A model generated the notes under the pieces. That model did no database searches. It was not told where the DNA came from and was given only the letters and a program-made list of their open reading frames with translations. From Candidatus Thorarchaeota archaeon (lineage in GTDB: Archaea; Asgardarchaeota; Thorarchaeia; Thorarchaeales; Thorarchaeaceae), in NCBI GenBank assembly GCA_021498125.1, contig JAIZWL010000001.1, forward strand, positions 1,230,099 to 1,294,098: a DNA stretch of 64,000 nt, in the 5' to 3' direction. The translations under genes were made by a program, and so were the position numbers. The first letter of the stretch is position 1. Each line of letters opens with the position of its first letter. Shown in pieces: positions 30,063-38,047 of the stretch.

Positions 30063-32036
30063 TCAGAGCTTGTTCATGAGCCATAGTACAATCTGGAGTG
30101 CTATTGTCTTATCGCCATTCGCCTCGTATTTGCCAGAGAGACCCCAATTATCTATGAAGAAGTTGGTGCCTGTGACGACCAACCGGCCGCCTCCGGATCG
30201 TTCCATGGCCCCGAGTGTGACTACGGACTTGTAGGTTGCTAGGCTCGTGGCATTTTCAGGTAAAGTGAGATTTGCTCCCACAAAATCGAAGCCTGTGACG
30301 CCAGCAGTTATCGAATGTATTGTGAGATTGATCACTTTCACAGCATCTCCCGAGCTTGGAATTCTGTGGGTCCCTAACGCGAACCCGCTCCATGAGAGTA
30401 ATTCATTTACTGCTGAGACGTTTATGCTCTTGTTATCCAGTCCGGCAACAAATATGCCCCCGGAATTATTGAAGTAGCTCTCATATGCTCGTATCTCATC
30501 TTGTGTGTATCTCAAAGAGTACGCTTTGGGATGTAATGGGTCGGTCTCGTTTGTACCCCACGTACAGGGATCGAGGATGAGGACCGCATCATATCGGTTG
30601 AGCAGGTTCTCCGTAATGGTCGTGCCCTGGGCAAACTCTGTGACAGAGATTGAGTTCTTCACCAATAGCTTGTAGAACTCTCTGAACTGCCCATAATGGG
30701 TATCAATTGACCACGCAGAGCGACTGACATCTAGTGCAACGTGAGCACTCGCCTCAGCGGCCGTAAACGAAATCTGAAGATAGTCGGTTGAAACCCCACT
30801 TGCAAATGTGATATTTGCAGCAAAGATTGTTGGGCCCGATGAGGGAACATGGATCTCGAGGGGAATGATGGCTGTCTGATTTACTTCAACGGTTGATGGC
30901 ATATGAAATACGGACGGTGTTGTCGTAGTGATATCGACTGTATACTGCATATGCTTACTATTGATGATCTGGACGCCAAACGAGTAATTATCATTATAAA
31001 ATAGGCGTTCGTAATCAATAGGGAGTTGTTTGGGGTGGACATACGTGAGGGCCGGGACCTCAGATGACTGACTGAAGGAACCGATGATTTGAAGTGCTTT
31101 GGTATAATTGACCTTTCCCGCACCGACCACATATTCCGGATATGCCATCCGGGTAGCCGATTTCATCAGGGCCGCCTTAATGAGCCCGGGAGTATATGCG
31201 ATGCCATGGTCCTTGCAATATTTTATCAAGTCTGCCACTCGTCCTGCAATTCGGGGTGATGAGAAACTTGTTCCGTAATAGATCGCACTACTTGTGCTCA
31301 CGTATCCTGTTGCCATGATATCTGGTTTCATAATGGGTTCTCTTGTTGGCCCCGTGCTGGAATACTGTGCAGGCTTCCCCAGTTCATCTAGAGCTCCAAC
31401 AGCAATCACATTTTCGAACAATGCAGGAGCTCCTACTGACGATCCTGCCGTACCACTGTCGCCCTCATTTCCTGCCGAAGAGACCACTACAACTCCATGG
31501 TTCACTGCGTAATTGATCGCATCACGCATCGGATCTCCAAGAGTTGGTGATGATCCAAGACTAAGGTTAATGACACTGCAATTCTCTTCAATGGCCCAAT
31601 AGATCGCTGCGACAATTGCAGCAGAGGTGGCGCTCCCCTCATCAGATATGGTCTTTGCATTGACAATCACAGCACTTGTGGAACTTGAGAGGATCGTGTT
31701 CGAGACCAGTGTCCCGTGAGGTACTCTCTCCGGTTCGGAGTCGGCAGTACTGGTATCGGCCACATCGTACCCATATTGAGGGAGGATGAAGCTCTTTGAT
31801 GCAACTACCGAACCAAATGGTAGTTCATCGGCGTTCACACCGGTGTCGATCACGGCAACACGTACACCGTCTTTCTGTGACCCGATAATGTTTGGCAATT
31901 CCGGTGCGAGTATTGCCGTCAGAGTCGATGCGAGAATAATTAATACAATTAATATGGCAATTCCCTTAAGGGTGCCAGATTTTTCCGTTTTTCGTGGCAC
32001 GTTTTCAATTTCCCAGGCGTGGATCATGCTAGTCAT
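30063..32036 (-). CDS. Membrane-anchored or secreted subtilisin-like serine protease (S8)
   Basis: 657 residues. An N-terminal hydrophobic helix (about 25-45, GIAILIVLIILASTLTAILA) anchors or exports it. The S8 catalytic triad is complete: Asp in AVIDTGVNAD, His in VPHGTLVSNTI, Ser in GTSFSSPRIAG; the oxyanion Asn is in SSAGNEGDSGT. After the catalytic domain (to about 330) comes a beta domain and then a Rossmann-like segment (AVLILDPCTWGTNE, GGIFVAGLDN). There is no long propeptide. It faces outside, probably trimming or degrading surface proteins. The start may also be the Met four codons later. Confidence 0.9.
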   Translation of the reverse strand: MTSMIHAWEIENVPRKTEKSGTLKGIAILIVLIILASTLTAILAPELPNIIGSQKDGVRVAVIDTGVNADELPFGSVVASKSFILPQYGYDVADTSTADSEPERVPHGTLVSNTILSSSTSAVIVNAKTISDEGSATSAAIVAAIYWAIEENCSVINLSLGSSPTLGDPMRDAINYAVNHGVVVVSSAGNEGDSGTAGSSVGAPALFENVIAVGALDELGKPAQYSSTGPTREPIMKPDIMATGYVSTSSAIYYGTSFSSPRIAGRVADLIKYCKDHGIAYTPGLIKAALMKSATRMAYPEYVVGAGKVNYTKALQIIGSFSQSSEVPALTYVHPKQLPIDYERLFYNDNYSFGVQIINSKHMQYTVDITTTTPSVFHMPSTVEVNQTAIIPLEIHVPSSGPTIFAANITFASGVSTDYLQISFTAAEASAHVALDVSRSAWSIDTHYGQFREFYKLLVKNSISVTEFAQGTTITENLLNRYDAVLILDPCTWGTNETDPLHPKAYSLRYTQDEIRAYESYFNNSGGIFVAGLDNKSINVSAVNELLSWSGFALGTHRIPSSGDAVKVINLTIHSITAGVTGFDFVGANLTLPENATSLATYKSVVTLGAMERSGGGRLVVTGTNFFIDNWGLSGKYEANGDKTIALQIVLWLMNKL

Positions 32037-32216: not shown

Positions 32217-35129
32217 TTGTCGAAGCAAGAAGCCACTACTCATGCATCACCCAGTGTTCACTTTCCCTCTATGCAAATTGATGAAGTCTTGAAGACGCTC
32301 TCTGTTGACCCTGAGCGAGGTCTCTCACATAATGAGGTCAAGTCTCGTCTAGAGCGATACGGCCCTAACACTATCCCAAAGGCGAAAGGCAGTTTTTGGA
32401 AGGTATACCTTGCGCCAATCCTCAACTGGCTGATTACAATCTATCTGATTAGCTCCTTTGCACTGCTCATTATTGCATGGTTGGTTCCTTCGACTGATAA
32501 CCGGATTGGGCAGGCAATGCTCTGGTTGTCAGTTGTGATTGTTAACTGTCTGGTGGCTATCTTCCAGCAATTCAGGGCGCAAAAGAAACTAGAGGCATTA
32601 GAGAAGCTATCTGCTGGGGAGTCTCGTGTCGTACGAGAGGGGTCAGATGTACAAGTCGATCCTGTTGAGATTGTCCCTGGGGATATTATCAAACTTGAGC
32701 AGGGCGATCGAATCCCTGCTGATGCTCGAATACTTGTCAGTACAAATTTTGCTACAAACGAGGCATCTTTGACAGGAGAGAGCGTGCCTGTAGCCAAACA
32801 TGCTGATGCAGTAGTATCGCCTGATGCACCTCTGACCGATATGCGTAACATGGTCTTCTTGGGCACATATGTTGCTACTGGTGTTGCAAGAGCAGTTGTG
32901 ACGACCACTGGGCGTGATACCGAAATTGGTAAGATCCAAGGTTCATTAGAGTCTCTCAATACTGGTGATATTCCCCTCCGTAAAAAGGTCAATCTGTTGG
33001 CCAAATACCTAGGCATTGCTGCGATTATTCTTCTCTTCGTTTCAATCTCTTGGCGAATCTTTGTCACTCCGATTATCGAGCAGTTTCCAATCTCATTTGC
33101 AGTGGACATAATTGCTGCTCATGTCACTGAAGGAATCACTCGTGCAATGACCATTATGCCCATCAATATCCCCTTGCTCACTACCATTGTGCTCCTCACT
33201 GGGGTTCTAGCAATGGCCAAACATGGGGTCATCATCCGCGACCTATCAGCCGTTGAGAGTCTGGGTCGAGTCAGTGTGATCTGTTCTGACAAGACCGGGA
33301 CCATGACACGGAACCAAATGACGGTCAAATATTGCTGGGACACAGAGAATCTCTATGCAGTCACTGGGGACGGATATGAACCGCGCGGAGAGATTTATCG
33401 CGTACGCAATCCGGACATGCCTGACCGATACAATTCGGAGGATAAGGTACTTGTCAGTGATGTATACGGATGGAAAGGACTCTATACCCTTATTGTCTGT
33501 GGCGGGATTAATAATGACTCCGAGATTATTCAGCGACCCGTTTCAAAGGATGAGACCGTGTGGACCCCTGTCGGAGATCCCACTGATGCAGCATTGCTGG
33601 CCCTGTTCAGAAAGAGTGGTCTAGATGAGGCTCAGATTCGTAAACAGTACGAGATCGTCTTGGAGTTCCCGTTCGAATCAGAATTGAAACGGATGTCCAA
33701 AGTGTGTCGTAATAATGGCAACTATACGATCTTTACAAAGGGCGCAACAGAAGTCCTTCTCCCGCTCTGTCGATCAGTACACAGCCCCTCTGGCCCCAAG
33801 CCTCTTACTCCCGCAGAACATGACCGAATCAATCGACTTGCTCAGGGTTTTGCTGAGCAGGGTTATCGTGTCATTTCTCTTGCTTATCGGGAAGCAACCT
33901 CGTTACCTACAGGATCTGATGCTCGATCCGCAACGGAACGCGACCTCATCTATGTTGGTTTCACCTGTATTGTGGACCCACCGCGAGATGGGGTTCGTGA
34001 GGCAGTCGATGCCTGCCACAGTGCAGGAATTGATGTTGTAATGATTACTGGTGATGCTGCAGCCACTGCAAGGACGATTGCGAAAGACCTGAACATCATG
34101 GGTCCGGACTCGCTTGTTGTTGAGGGTAATCAGATAGCTGATCTATCTGACGCAGAGTTTGCCCGTGTCAACGTATTCGCCCGTGTCAATCCCGAGCACA
34201 AGCAGGTGATCGTTGAACGCTATCAGGCGCAAGGCAAAGTTGTTTCGATGACTGGTGATGGTGTCAACGATGCGCTCGCTCTTGCAATGAGTGATGCAGG
34301 TGTTGCAATGGGTATTACTGGCACTGATGTTGCAAAAGAAGCAGCTGACCTTATAATAACCGATGACAGTTTTGCATCAATTGTCACTGGTGTAAAAGAG
34401 GGTCGTGGGCTCTTTACGAAGATCCGCATGATGGTGTACTTCTATATTGCTATCAACCTGTTTGAGAGCATTATCTTTTTTGGGGCGATGTTTTTCTTAC
34501 CGAGTACTGTCCAGATGTTGGCACCTTGGCAAAGCCTTTACTTGATAGTCACAACGCATTCTTTCCCGGGTCTTGCTTTAGTGTTCGATAAGACCTCCCC
34601 ACATGTAATGGACGAAGAGCCTCGTGATAGCGAGGAGATCATCACAGGACCTCTTGCTCGATACATGATCCTAAATGTAATCCTTATGGCCTTTGGAGCA
34701 GCGATGGCCTACTTCCTCACTTATACTGGCTGGCTTGGCATTGTGGACATCTATCCTGAGAATGGGACTGGCTTCTACTCGATAGTCAATCGTCCAATGA
34801 AGGCAACAGTAATGATGCTCACTGTGCTTCTTCTACTGGAGAGCACTATCGTACTGATCATTCGGAGGATTAACATGCCTCTGAGCAAATCACTACGGGA
34901 GCCTGGGACATACAGGTTTGCCATCCTCCTTGGCCTGATCTATATCGCGCACCTTGGCCTGATGTATCTATATCCCGCACAGGAGATTCTTGACTCGGTC
35001 GGTCTCAGATTCTTCTTTGTGCCGTTGACATGGTACGACTGGCTCATCTGCATACTGCTGGCACTGCCTGCAATTGTTGGTATGGAGCTTTACAAACGCA
35101 TGTTGAGACGTAACAATGTAACGCTGTGA
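32217..35129 (+). CDS. P-type cation-transporting ATPase with unusual ion-site motif
   Basis: 970 residues. Cation-ATPase N-domain (RGLSHNEVKSRLERYGPNTI), actuator TGES (ASLTGESVPVA), phosphorylation Asp358 in CSDKTGTMT, nucleotide-domain FTKGATE, hinge MTGDGVNDALAL, and about ten transmembrane helices. The general scaffold is P2-type (Ca2+, Na+/K+), but the transmembrane-4 motif that is normally PEGLP reads PINIP (315-319). The ion-binding Glu is therefore replaced by Ile, which resembles the PIAMP of P3A proton pumps. Start is TTG after GGGG. The last bases overlap the next gene (GTGA), so the pair is translationally coupled. Confidence 0.9.
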   Translation: MSKQEATTHASPSVHFPSMQIDEVLKTLSVDPERGLSHNEVKSRLERYGPNTIPKAKGSFWKVYLAPILNWLITIYLISSFALLIIAWLVPSTDNRIGQAMLWLSVVIVNCLVAIFQQFRAQKKLEALEKLSAGESRVVREGSDVQVDPVEIVPGDIIKLEQGDRIPADARILVSTNFATNEASLTGESVPVAKHADAVVSPDAPLTDMRNMVFLGTYVATGVARAVVTTTGRDTEIGKIQGSLESLNTGDIPLRKKVNLLAKYLGIAAIILLFVSISWRIFVTPIIEQFPISFAVDIIAAHVTEGITRAMTIMPINIPLLTTIVLLTGVLAMAKHGVIIRDLSAVESLGRVSVICSDKTGTMTRNQMTVKYCWDTENLYAVTGDGYEPRGEIYRVRNPDMPDRYNSEDKVLVSDVYGWKGLYTLIVCGGINNDSEIIQRPVSKDETVWTPVGDPTDAALLALFRKSGLDEAQIRKQYEIVLEFPFESELKRMSKVCRNNGNYTIFTKGATEVLLPLCRSVHSPSGPKPLTPAEHDRINRLAQGFAEQGYRVISLAYREATSLPTGSDARSATERDLIYVGFTCIVDPPRDGVREAVDACHSAGIDVVMITGDAAATARTIAKDLNIMGPDSLVVEGNQIADLSDAEFARVNVFARVNPEHKQVIVERYQAQGKVVSMTGDGVNDALALAMSDAGVAMGITGTDVAKEAADLIITDDSFASIVTGVKEGRGLFTKIRMMVYFYIAINLFESIIFFGAMFFLPSTVQMLAPWQSLYLIVTTHSFPGLALVFDKTSPHVMDEEPRDSEEIITGPLARYMILNVILMAFGAAMAYFLTYTGWLGIVDIYPENGTGFYSIVNRPMKATVMMLTVLLLLESTIVLIIRRINMPLSKSLREPGTYRFAILLGLIYIAHLGLMYLYPAQEILDSVGLRFFFVPLTWYDWLICILLALPAIVGMELYKRMLRRNNVTL

Positions 35130-37111
35130 CACACGCTATGACGATACGAACATGCCTGCTTCAATTGGCCGCACTCTCCGACCCGTTCCTTCAGGTCGTT
35201 CTTGGCCTTGCTCTAGCCGGCACGATCATGTTGGCAGTCCTCTTCATGGTCTTGAATGACCGACGAAAAGCGGCTCGAAAGATCGACCTGTTGCTTCTTG
35301 ACCAGATGACTGTATCACTTGCCGATCTGCGTACGCTCCTTCGAAAGCCCCGTCTGGATACTGGCGCTCTCAGAGGGATCATCGGTCTCTGCAATGATGC
35401 CATACTGGGTTTTACCGGTACGACTGTAGTATCTGCTCCTCTTCTACGGGAACGCCTCCGTCGGTTGATACATGACGATTCTATTGTCAGAACTGCTCAA
35501 GAGGCCGATATGTGGAGCCTGTCTGATGCAACTGTGGCAAATCTGATTGAGGCTATCGCGAAGAGTGAGGGGATCGATATCATACGGACGAGGACGGGGG
35601 ATTATGTAGTCGTGTCATACCTCAAGAGTCGCTTTCATGACGATCTTCAATTTCAAGGCCGTATCGATATCAAGAATGAGGCGCAGCGTCTTGGTGCTGA
35701 GCAATCTGATCTGATCGAGATGGTCTATTCTTGGGGCTGGGACATCATTGAGGTCTCTGACGATGTACTCGCCTCGACTGACTGGGTCCGCGTGCTCTTA
35801 GAGCGGATGGTTCTCTCTGAAGGCCGATTGAATCCAGAAGAGGCTGCGACTGCGATTGGTGTGTCAATCGACGATCTCTTTCGGTTACTCAAACGGTTAG
35901 ATTGGAAGACTATTACTGCTACTGATGGTGGTCTCATCCCTCTTCACACGGTGGAAGAATATCTGAGCGACCGCATTGAGCGAAATGGCATTGTTGATCT
36001 TAATGAGGCATCTGAGCATTTTGGCCTCTCGCACGATTCGTTGCTCAAGATTCTACGGAATATTGACCGTCAGATCATAGAGACCACTAGTGGTGAGGCT
36101 GTAACCCTTGATTACATCCGCCGGCAGGTGGATGCAAGCATACGCATGTCTGGCTGGGCCCATCCGGAGGACATTGCAGACCTGTTGGGAATCGATCCGC
36201 GTCTTGTTGTTCAGGTTCTTCGTTCAGAGGAGGAGTACCGCCGTGTCGCCGATGGCCGATACATCTCACTAAGATTCTTCCGTGACTGGCTGCTTGATCT
36301 CATCAACGACCAAGGTATCATTCCACTGGATTTGATTGAGAAGGAGTGGGGTCTCTCCCGTGTGGATGTTCGAGTCCTGATCAAACGTTTCGGCATCAAG
36401 ACGACCACGACCACCTCTGGAGACCTTCTCTCCTTGCAGTGGGCCCGCGATAGAATCAATGCAAAGATCGAGTCGGGGGAGTCGGTCTCTCCAGAATATG
36501 TGGCACGTGAATTCAATGTTGAGATCGGGGTCGCGGTTGCACTTATTGCAAATGTCGAGTCGTCGGCATATCAGACCCATGATGGCCGCTTGGTTCCTGA
36601 GCGTATCTTGCGTGAAGACCTTCGTAAGCGATTCATTGCTAAAGGGGTCATTGATCCCGAGAAGGAGGCCCATCGACTAGGGCTTGATGTGTCCGTGGTT
36701 GAGCGTCTTGTTGATTCACTGGCGGTTGATGCTGTTGAGACCAATCATGGAGCGCGTGTCTCGATTGCAGGAATACTGAAGTACATACGAAAGCGCCTTG
36801 ATGACAACGGGGTTGCCGATCTTGCTAAGGTCGCTGAGAGTTCAGGGATCGATTACAAGACTCTAGTGTCTCTACTTGAACGGAGATTGCTTGATACCGA
36901 AACGCTCGTTGACGCGGCACAGTGTGTTGTACGCACCGACTGGGTCAAGAAGGTCATTGAGCCTTTGGCAAGCACAGGTCAGATCCCTGTCACTGAATTC
37001 GCAAAGAAATACAATATTCGCCGTCGGGCCGCCCTGCACCTTCTTCGAGTCTTTCTAAAGGGTGCCTACATAAAGTCACGTGATCTCTTCATTGCTGTTC
37101 CGTCGGCCTGA
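35126..37111 (+). CDS. Membrane-anchored protein with ~10 winged-helix repeats (UFL1/DDRGK1-like)
   Basis: 661 residues. A transmembrane helix lies at about 14-36, then a basic patch and a helical linker. From about residue 110 to the end come about ten consecutive units of about 55 residues, each with the pattern G-x-[IV]-(x2)-(x)-A-x-x-x-G-[IL] ... hydrophobic ... D-G ... (examples GIVDLNEASEHFGLSHDSLL, GIIPLDLIEKEWGLSRVDVR, GVIDPEKEAHRLGLDVSVVE). These are winged-helix repeats, as in the eukaryotic E3 UFL1 and its membrane partner DDRGK1. Membrane anchor plus repeat array is like a fusion of the two. UFL1-family homologues have been reported in Asgard archaea. There is no cysteine active site or RING. 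It is coupled to the P-type ATPase gene by a 4-base overlap. Confidence 0.7.
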   Translation: MTHAMTIRTCLLQLAALSDPFLQVVLGLALAGTIMLAVLFMVLNDRRKAARKIDLLLLDQMTVSLADLRTLLRKPRLDTGALRGIIGLCNDAILGFTGTTVVSAPLLRERLRRLIHDDSIVRTAQEADMWSLSDATVANLIEAIAKSEGIDIIRTRTGDYVVVSYLKSRFHDDLQFQGRIDIKNEAQRLGAEQSDLIEMVYSWGWDIIEVSDDVLASTDWVRVLLERMVLSEGRLNPEEAATAIGVSIDDLFRLLKRLDWKTITATDGGLIPLHTVEEYLSDRIERNGIVDLNEASEHFGLSHDSLLKILRNIDRQIIETTSGEAVTLDYIRRQVDASIRMSGWAHPEDIADLLGIDPRLVVQVLRSEEEYRRVADGRYISLRFFRDWLLDLINDQGIIPLDLIEKEWGLSRVDVRVLIKRFGIKTTTTTSGDLLSLQWARDRINAKIESGESVSPEYVAREFNVEIGVAVALIANVESSAYQTHDGRLVPERILREDLRKRFIAKGVIDPEKEAHRLGLDVSVVERLVDSLAVDAVETNHGARVSIAGILKYIRKRLDDNGVADLAKVAESSGIDYKTLVSLLERRLLDTETLVDAAQCVVRTDWVKKVIEPLASTGQIPVTEFAKKYNIRRRAALHLLRVFLKGAYIKSRDLFIAVPSA

Positions 37112-37161: not shown

Positions 37162-37192
37162 CCGAACCGCTTCCTATATTGTGGAGATTCCT

Positions 37193-38047
37193 GTGGCTCG
37201 AGTCACGACTTACAAGATCCGCACGATGAAAAAGAAAGGTAAGAAGATCGTCATGCTCACTGCGTATGACGCTCCCACTGCTCAGATCCTAAGTGAGAGT
37301 GGCGTGGATATCATTCTTGTCGGTGATTCTGTAGGTAACTCCCTTCTCGGCTACGAGAGTACGATCCCTGTTACTCTTGATGATGTCATTCATCATTGCG
37401 CTGCTGTCAGACGTGGTAATCCCCGTAGTCTTGTTGTTGGTGATATGCCCTTCATGACTTACAAGGTCAGTGTTGAGCAGGCACTTGAGAACTGTGCAAG
37501 AATGTTGCAGGAGGGTGGTGCAGAGGCCGTGAAGCTTGAAGGCGGTGGTCCCGTTGTTGAGACCGTTCGTGCAGTTGTTGATGCGGGCATTCCCGTCATG
37601 GGCCACATAGGACTTACTCCTCAGTCCGTCTTTGAGTTCGGAGGCTATCGTGTTCAAGGTCGTACTGCGGAGGCAACTCGAAAGCTGGTCGAGGATGCTA
37701 AGAGGCTGGAAGAGGCTGGCGTGTTCTCTCTGGTCATCGAGCTAGTCCCATCTGAGACCGCAAAGATGATCACAGAGTCTGTTGATATCCCCACAATTGG
37801 TATTGGTGCCGGCCCATACTGTGATGGGCAGGTCTTGGTCCTATGGGATTTACTTGGGTTGTTTGAGGACTTCAAGCCGAAGTTTGTCAAGCAATATGCC
37901 AATATTCGTCGTGTCATCACAGAGGCGGTCTCGGCCTATACCGACGATGTTCGGTCTGGCAAGTTCCCTGATAAGGAACATAGTTTTGAGATGTCAGAAG
38001 AAGAGTCGGGTCGGCTCTACGGACGAGCAAAGCCGACCGAGGAATAA
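37193..38047 (+). CDS. panB: 3-methyl-2-oxobutanoate hydroxymethyltransferase (ketopantoate hydroxymethyltransferase)
   Basis: About 284 residues, the usual length. It adds a hydroxymethyl group from methylene-tetrahydrofolate or its archaeal analogue to 2-oxoisovalerate, the first step to pantothenate and CoA. Motifs: MLTAYDAPTAQ, LVGDSVGNSLLGY, GDMPFMTY, AEAVKLEGG, MGHIGLTPQSVFEFGGY, and IGIGAGPYCDGQVLVLWDLLG. Mg2+ is held by Asp residues of the AYDA and GDSVGN motifs. GTG 37193 has GGAG six bases upstream; GTG 37181 is the longer choice. It is a stand-alone unit after the winged-helix-repeat gene. Confidence 0.95.
   Translation: MARVTTYKIRTMKKKGKKIVMLTAYDAPTAQILSESGVDIILVGDSVGNSLLGYESTIPVTLDDVIHHCAAVRRGNPRSLVVGDMPFMTYKVSVEQALENCARMLQEGGAEAVKLEGGGPVVETVRAVVDAGIPVMGHIGLTPQSVFEFGGYRVQGRTAEATRKLVEDAKRLEEAGVFSLVIELVPSETAKMITESVDIPTIGIGAGPYCDGQVLVLWDLLGLFEDFKPKFVKQYANIRRVITEAVSAYTDDVRSGKFPDKEHSFEMSEEESGRLYGRAKPTEE

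Follow-up and report, generated by a model that had tools for sequence, protein, structure and literature searches.

What does a membrane-anchored array of winged helices related to a eukaryotic E3 ligase do in an archaeon? This question was raised by an open reading frame at positions 35126 to 37111 (+ strand, 661 aa) of the 64,000-nucleotide stretch of Candidatus Thorarchaeota DNA that we analyzed (the window). The sequence-only reading of this locus had described one transmembrane (TM) helix followed by about ten winged-helix (WH) repeats of roughly 55 residues resembling UFL1 and DDRGK1, and it had proposed that the protein might resemble an ancestor of the UFMylation ligase. The open reading frame starts with GTG, and the sequence GTGA overlaps the stop codon of an upstream P-type ATPase gene by 4 nt.

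The anchor and the repeats were both borne out by hydropathy analysis and by an AlphaFold2 model built from an alignment of 14 orthologs. The hydropathy profile had its peak at residue 24 (KD19 of 2.67; second best, 1.36), and the model began with one long N-terminal helix spanning residues 20-56, which together placed a single TM helix at residues ~22-46 (35189..35263, +). An Arg/Lys cluster followed directly after this helix, and the helix and its positive flank were common to all orthologs with a retained N terminus. Because of this cluster, the C-terminal side of the protein, which carries the array, is predicted to be cytoplasmic. After the N-terminal helix, the model showed an uninterrupted run of WH units spaced about 55 residues apart; the array itself was as expected from the earlier reading, and the number of units came to 11. 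The mean pLDDT of the model was 88.4 and the pTM was 0.50, which we read as uncertainty about the curvature of a long solenoid and not as doubt about the domains.

All units of the array are encoded on the + strand. WH1 (residues 50-103, 35273..35434) occupies the position of the DDRGK1 WH1' domain, and WH2 (residues 104-162, 35435..35611) is the counterpart of the composite pWH'-pWH domain, which the array forms within a single unbroken chain. The best-scoring stretch of the match to the Pfam UFL1 model lies at residues 129-187 (35510..35686). WH3 (residues 163-217, 35612..35776) was the most conserved unit, with a mean pairwise identity of 0.49. The model and the register of the repeats delimited WH4 (residues 218-272, 35777..35941), WH5 (residues 273-327, 35942..36106), WH6 (residues 328-381, 36107..36268), WH7 (residues 382-436, 36269..36433), WH8 (residues 437-491, 36434..36598), WH9 (residues 492-546, 36599..36763), and WH10 (residues 547-603, 36764..36934). 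WH11 (residues 604-658, 36935..37099) was well conserved and was the sole clearly basic unit. Mean pairwise identities of 0.37-0.41 were found for WH2, WH4, WH7, WH8, and WH11, and W203, G204, W220, and W260 were invariant in the orthologs covering those positions. The best-conserved stretch of the array included WH2-WH3, the part that matches UFL1.

The relationship to UFL1 was evident in both sequence profiles and predicted fold. The Pfam UFL1 model (PF09743) matched the array protein with 41.6 bits (E = 1.5e-10; cut-off, 23.2), which by profile score is far beyond chance, and it matched 12 of the 14 orthologs (E ≤ 1; fragments counted). The Pfam DDRGK model, the other profile that the sequence-only reading had singled out, was not among the matches of the array protein, nor was it among the ortholog matches shown. 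When a profile of the orthologs was compared with the PDB, the best match was the human DDRGK1-UFL1 chimera 8b9x (E = 1.2e-7; second match, 0.15); the same database searched with the array protein as a single sequence yielded no informative match. In the case of the Foldseek search with the array model, ranks 1 to 5 were all UFL1 or chimera chains (1.1e-12 to 1.5e-9), and the matches beyond UFL1 included SelB (2.5e-5) and ESCRT-II (8e-3). A separate model of residues 45-310 (pLDDT 91.4) was superimposed on the 256-residue chimera 8b9x over 254 columns with a TM-score of ~0.45 and an rmsd of 7.4, values that would fit a similar stack with a different curvature. The resemblance of the array protein to UFL1/DDRGK1 is therefore real, ahead of every other family in profile and predicted fold. 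Absent profile matches combined with an unlike fold, the outcome at odds with the proposed likeness, did not occur.

To define the register, single, double, and triple WH blocks of the array were compared with chain 8b9x. The best combination paired WH2-WH3 with residues 94-165 of the chain (32.2 bits), which is the start of UFL1, and a clear best register against the chimera was obtained for the UFL1 N-terminal core only. WH1 was paired with DDRGK1 by position and fold alone, and its sequence score was not significant. As for E2 binding, UFL1 binds the E2 UFC1 through a free N-terminal helix on a hinge, and an Arg of the DDRGK motif also contributes (PMC10937380). In the array, the chain runs on without a break, and helices that come earlier in the same WH unit take the position of this E2-docking helix; judging from the register, a free UFC1-binding N-terminal helix is probably missing. 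The DDRGK motif was absent from all Thorarchaeal orthologs. A protein encoded elsewhere in the same genome matched the DDRGK model below the cut-off (25.6 bits versus 27.8), and this candidate was rejected; by eye, it looked like a ribosomal protein of the eS25 type whose tail is rich in Lys.

The overall layout parallels that of the human UFL1-DDRGK1 (UFBP1) E3 core (PDB 8b9x, 8c0d, 8ohd, and 8qfc). Both are built from stacked WH units, the composite pWH and WH1 of the human core are matched by the WH2-WH3 block of the array, and in both the TM anchor lies at the DDRGK1 end (PMC9627666). The order of TM helix, WH, composite WH, and WH array is formed jointly by DDRGK1 and UFL1, whereas the Thorarchaeal protein has it in one chain. 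The human core is made of two chains with seven WH units, and the array is one chain with 11. Moreover, the array differs from the human core in having neither the N-terminal E2-binding helix of UFL1, nor the DDRGK motif, nor a C-terminal helical region, and no E2 was found in its lineage. The C-terminal WH array of SelB and ESCRT-II also contain tandem WH units, but they have fewer units, are soluble, and gave weaker fold matches.

A ligase of this type needs ubiquitin-type machinery, from which the whole lineage of the array appears to be free. Profile searches of the host genome (98% complete) gave no match at all to UFC1 and no match to the UQ_con E2 model at E ≤ 1. The modifier search covered UFM1 and ubiquitin models; UFM1 matches in the host genome were all below the cut-off, and ubiquitin had no match in 47 genomes of the Thorarchaeal family in a search that included no Asgard positive control. 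The E2 model does work in this phylum, since it matched 82 of 119 sampled Asgard genomes; the family of the array had no genome among those 82. A literature search on E2 absence in Thorarchaeota returned nothing relevant. ThiF-type E1s are widespread among prokaryotes, so a UBA5-like E1 would say little about such a ligase. Matches to the UFC1 model were confined to other Asgard families and were mostly weak. One Asgard protein, L096 (genome G087), scored 40.5 bits against the UFC1 model (cut-off, 25), although UFC1 has been described as eukaryote-only.

The array gene occupies a constant position in the genomes that carry it. The upstream gene (32217..35129, +) encodes a 970-aa P2-type cation-transporting P-type ATPase with Pfam matches to E1-E2_ATPase, Cation_ATPase, Cation_ATPase_C, and Cation_ATPase_N; its best NCBIfam model was PMR1-type, below the cut-off. 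The downstream gene (37181..38047, +) is panB, encoding 3-methyl-2-oxobutanoate hydroxymethyltransferase (TIGR00222, 364 bits; cut-off, 207.55). Orthologs of the array gene were found in 13 genomes, including the host, from six genera of one Thorarchaeal family. The coupling to a P-type ATPase gene that was noted earlier held throughout, since the ATPase gene was directly upstream of the array gene in 13 of 13 genomes, and panB was directly downstream in the 10 genomes whose contigs reach that far. The likeliest start of the array gene was about -20 to +31 nt from the ATPase stop codon in 12 of the 13 genomes; the gap was longer in the remaining one (G003). Outside the family, array matches were partial and weaker. 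A contig scan with the array protein as a single query found no relative, and a scan with a smaller ortholog alignment found five records (four labeled Thorarchaeota and one labeled Lokiarchaeota).

At least 20 genomes of the family had the ATPase gene followed directly by panB, with no array gene detected. When the presence of the array was placed on a quick ATPase tree, at least five changes were counted, two of which were forced by well-supported branches. Given this constant site, the simplest account is that the gene was present early and was lost repeatedly, and the array gene is probably old at the ATPase-panB site; alternatively, it may have been transferred within the locus. Identities among array orthologs (29-61%) were well below those of the neighboring genes (62-88%). 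Two features of the ATPase and its relatives were seen in nearly all readable family members: a TM4 motif that reads MPINIPLL instead of the usual PEGL, and a TM6 motif that reads THSFPGLALVFD. On the other side, the ATPase gene adjoins a gene for a subtilase-family (Peptidase_S8) protein (30063-32036, - strand).

The TM helix, the WH array, the UFL1-type homology and fold, and the placement after the ATPase gene are all read from sequence or prediction; we infer that the protein is a scaffold, that it is co-translated with the ATPase, and that the two are functionally linked. Specifically, we put the probability at about 0.6 that the protein is a membrane-tethered WH scaffold in which one TM helix would tether a cytoplasmic solenoid of 11 UFL1/DDRGK1-type winged helices. 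The solenoid would serve as a protein-docking surface that recruits cytosolic partners to the membrane independently of UFM1, and the protein would be made together with the adjacent ATPase. Two points speak against this reading: the ATPase gene also occurs without the array gene, and the rapid divergence of the array suggests that its conserved docking surfaces are limited. A more specific task for the scaffold is conceivable since UFL1 also binds the ribosome: its WH1 and WH2 touch 60S proteins (PMC10937380). It is improbable, however, that the array is a UFM1-independent membrane factor that docks ribosomes near translocons, much as UFL1-DDRGK1 docks on the 60S subunit. The most UFL1-like part of the array does fall in the best-conserved stretch, but the GGN loop motif of UFL1 is absent from the protein, and the patchy presence of the gene would be odd for a translation factor. 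The array could also serve the co-encoded ATPase as an accessory or regulatory subunit, with the TM helix packing on the pump and the array sensing or recruiting a cytoplasmic control factor. P-type ATPase accessory subunits with a single TM helix are known in eukaryotes, and the array gene always lies directly downstream of the ATPase gene, usually overlapping it or within ~31 nt. We regard this explanation as somewhat unlikely; the same ATPase clade occurs without the array in the 20 or more genomes mentioned above, which indicates that the array is not an obligate subunit, and the TM4 and TM6 motifs of the ATPase look alike whether or not the array gene is present.

A membrane-bound regulator whose winged helices bind DNA or RNA is still less probable. 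The WH is a common DNA-binding fold, the RNA-binding WH array of SelB is the next fold neighbor, and WH11 has a net charge of about +8 (residues 599-653), but WH2-WH9 are neutral to acidic, which argues against nucleic acid binding, and the matches to HTH-family models were weak and far below those of UFL1-type models. As for the proposal of an E3 ligase, ancestral-like or divergent, that would act with a ubiquitin-like modifier, its appeal lies in the UFL1/DDRGK1 homology and fold and in a TM anchor like that of DDRGK1. We consider it highly unlikely given the search results for UFC1, UQ_con E2, ubiquitin, and UFM1, the missing E2-docking helix and DDRGK motif, and the report that UFM1 and UFC1 are eukaryote-only (EMBO J 2023, PMC10183829). 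In a lineage with no detected ubiquitin-type machinery, a scaffold is the most likely role of the array.

UFL1 and DDRGK1 have been reported to be of Asgard origin, perhaps with UFM1-independent functions (PMC10183829); the sequence-only reading had likewise mentioned reported UFL1 relatives in Asgard archaea. Its remark that such an arrangement is unusual in archaea was too strong, since WH arrays, some of them apparently membrane-anchored, recur in Asgard genomes. Proteins of ~790 aa from other Asgard families matched UFL1 mostly with 50-74 bits, and most also matched DDRGK; scores for this type, of which L036 is an example, reached 74 bits with UFL1 and 56 bits with DDRGK. Because these proteins, which we take to be of a Lokiarchaeal type (L036-L064), match better than the Thorarchaeal array, the latter is not the archaeal protein nearest to the ligase; it belongs to a known homology family, of which it is a divergent and anchored representative. 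The Lokiarchaeal-type proteins are soluble chains for which a single continuous alignment covered the DDRGK1 and UFL1 halves of the chimera (53.4 bits), and by this sequence alignment DDRGK1-like and UFL1-like units are present in one chain. Like the Thorarchaeal protein, they thus have a single-chain UFL1-type WH array colinear with the DDRGK1-UFL1 chimera. In contrast to it, they have a Cys-rich N terminus and a region that by eye resembles a beta-sandwich; their C terminus gave a VPS28-like match, and no TM helix was seen by eye. VPS28 was matched by 13 of 15 of these proteins. The register of the whole array against them was ambiguous because the repeats align at several offsets.

Three things are new here: the layout, with anchor and array in one chain; the locus of the gene; and the occurrence of such a protein in a lineage in which no E2 was detected. 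According to a published view, UFMylation is a mosaic, with UFL1 and DDRGK1 predating UFM1 (PMC10183829), and a UFL1-type array in a lineage without detected E2 or ubiquitin offers a natural case for asking what such arrays did before a modifier came to depend on them. Asgard arrays in which one chain aligns with both subunits also suggest that the composite winged helix of UFL1/DDRGK1 may have originated by gene splitting. We tentatively propose, while regarding it as unlikely, that the eukaryotic two-subunit core arose by the splitting of a one-chain Asgard WH solenoid, which at first docked at the membrane without UFM1, and that the Thorarchaeal protein keeps the anchored one-chain layout.

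Further arrangements were seen by eye in other Asgard proteins. In four of these (L085, L089, L094, and L095), the WH array was preceded by a TM helix and by what looked like extracellular beta domains, Fn3-like or other, and in some of the four further TM or zinc-ribbon segments came after it. In three others (L086, L087, and L092), WH-array segments were fused to what looked like NTPase, WD40, and TPR segments, which suggests that the WH array is a reusable module.
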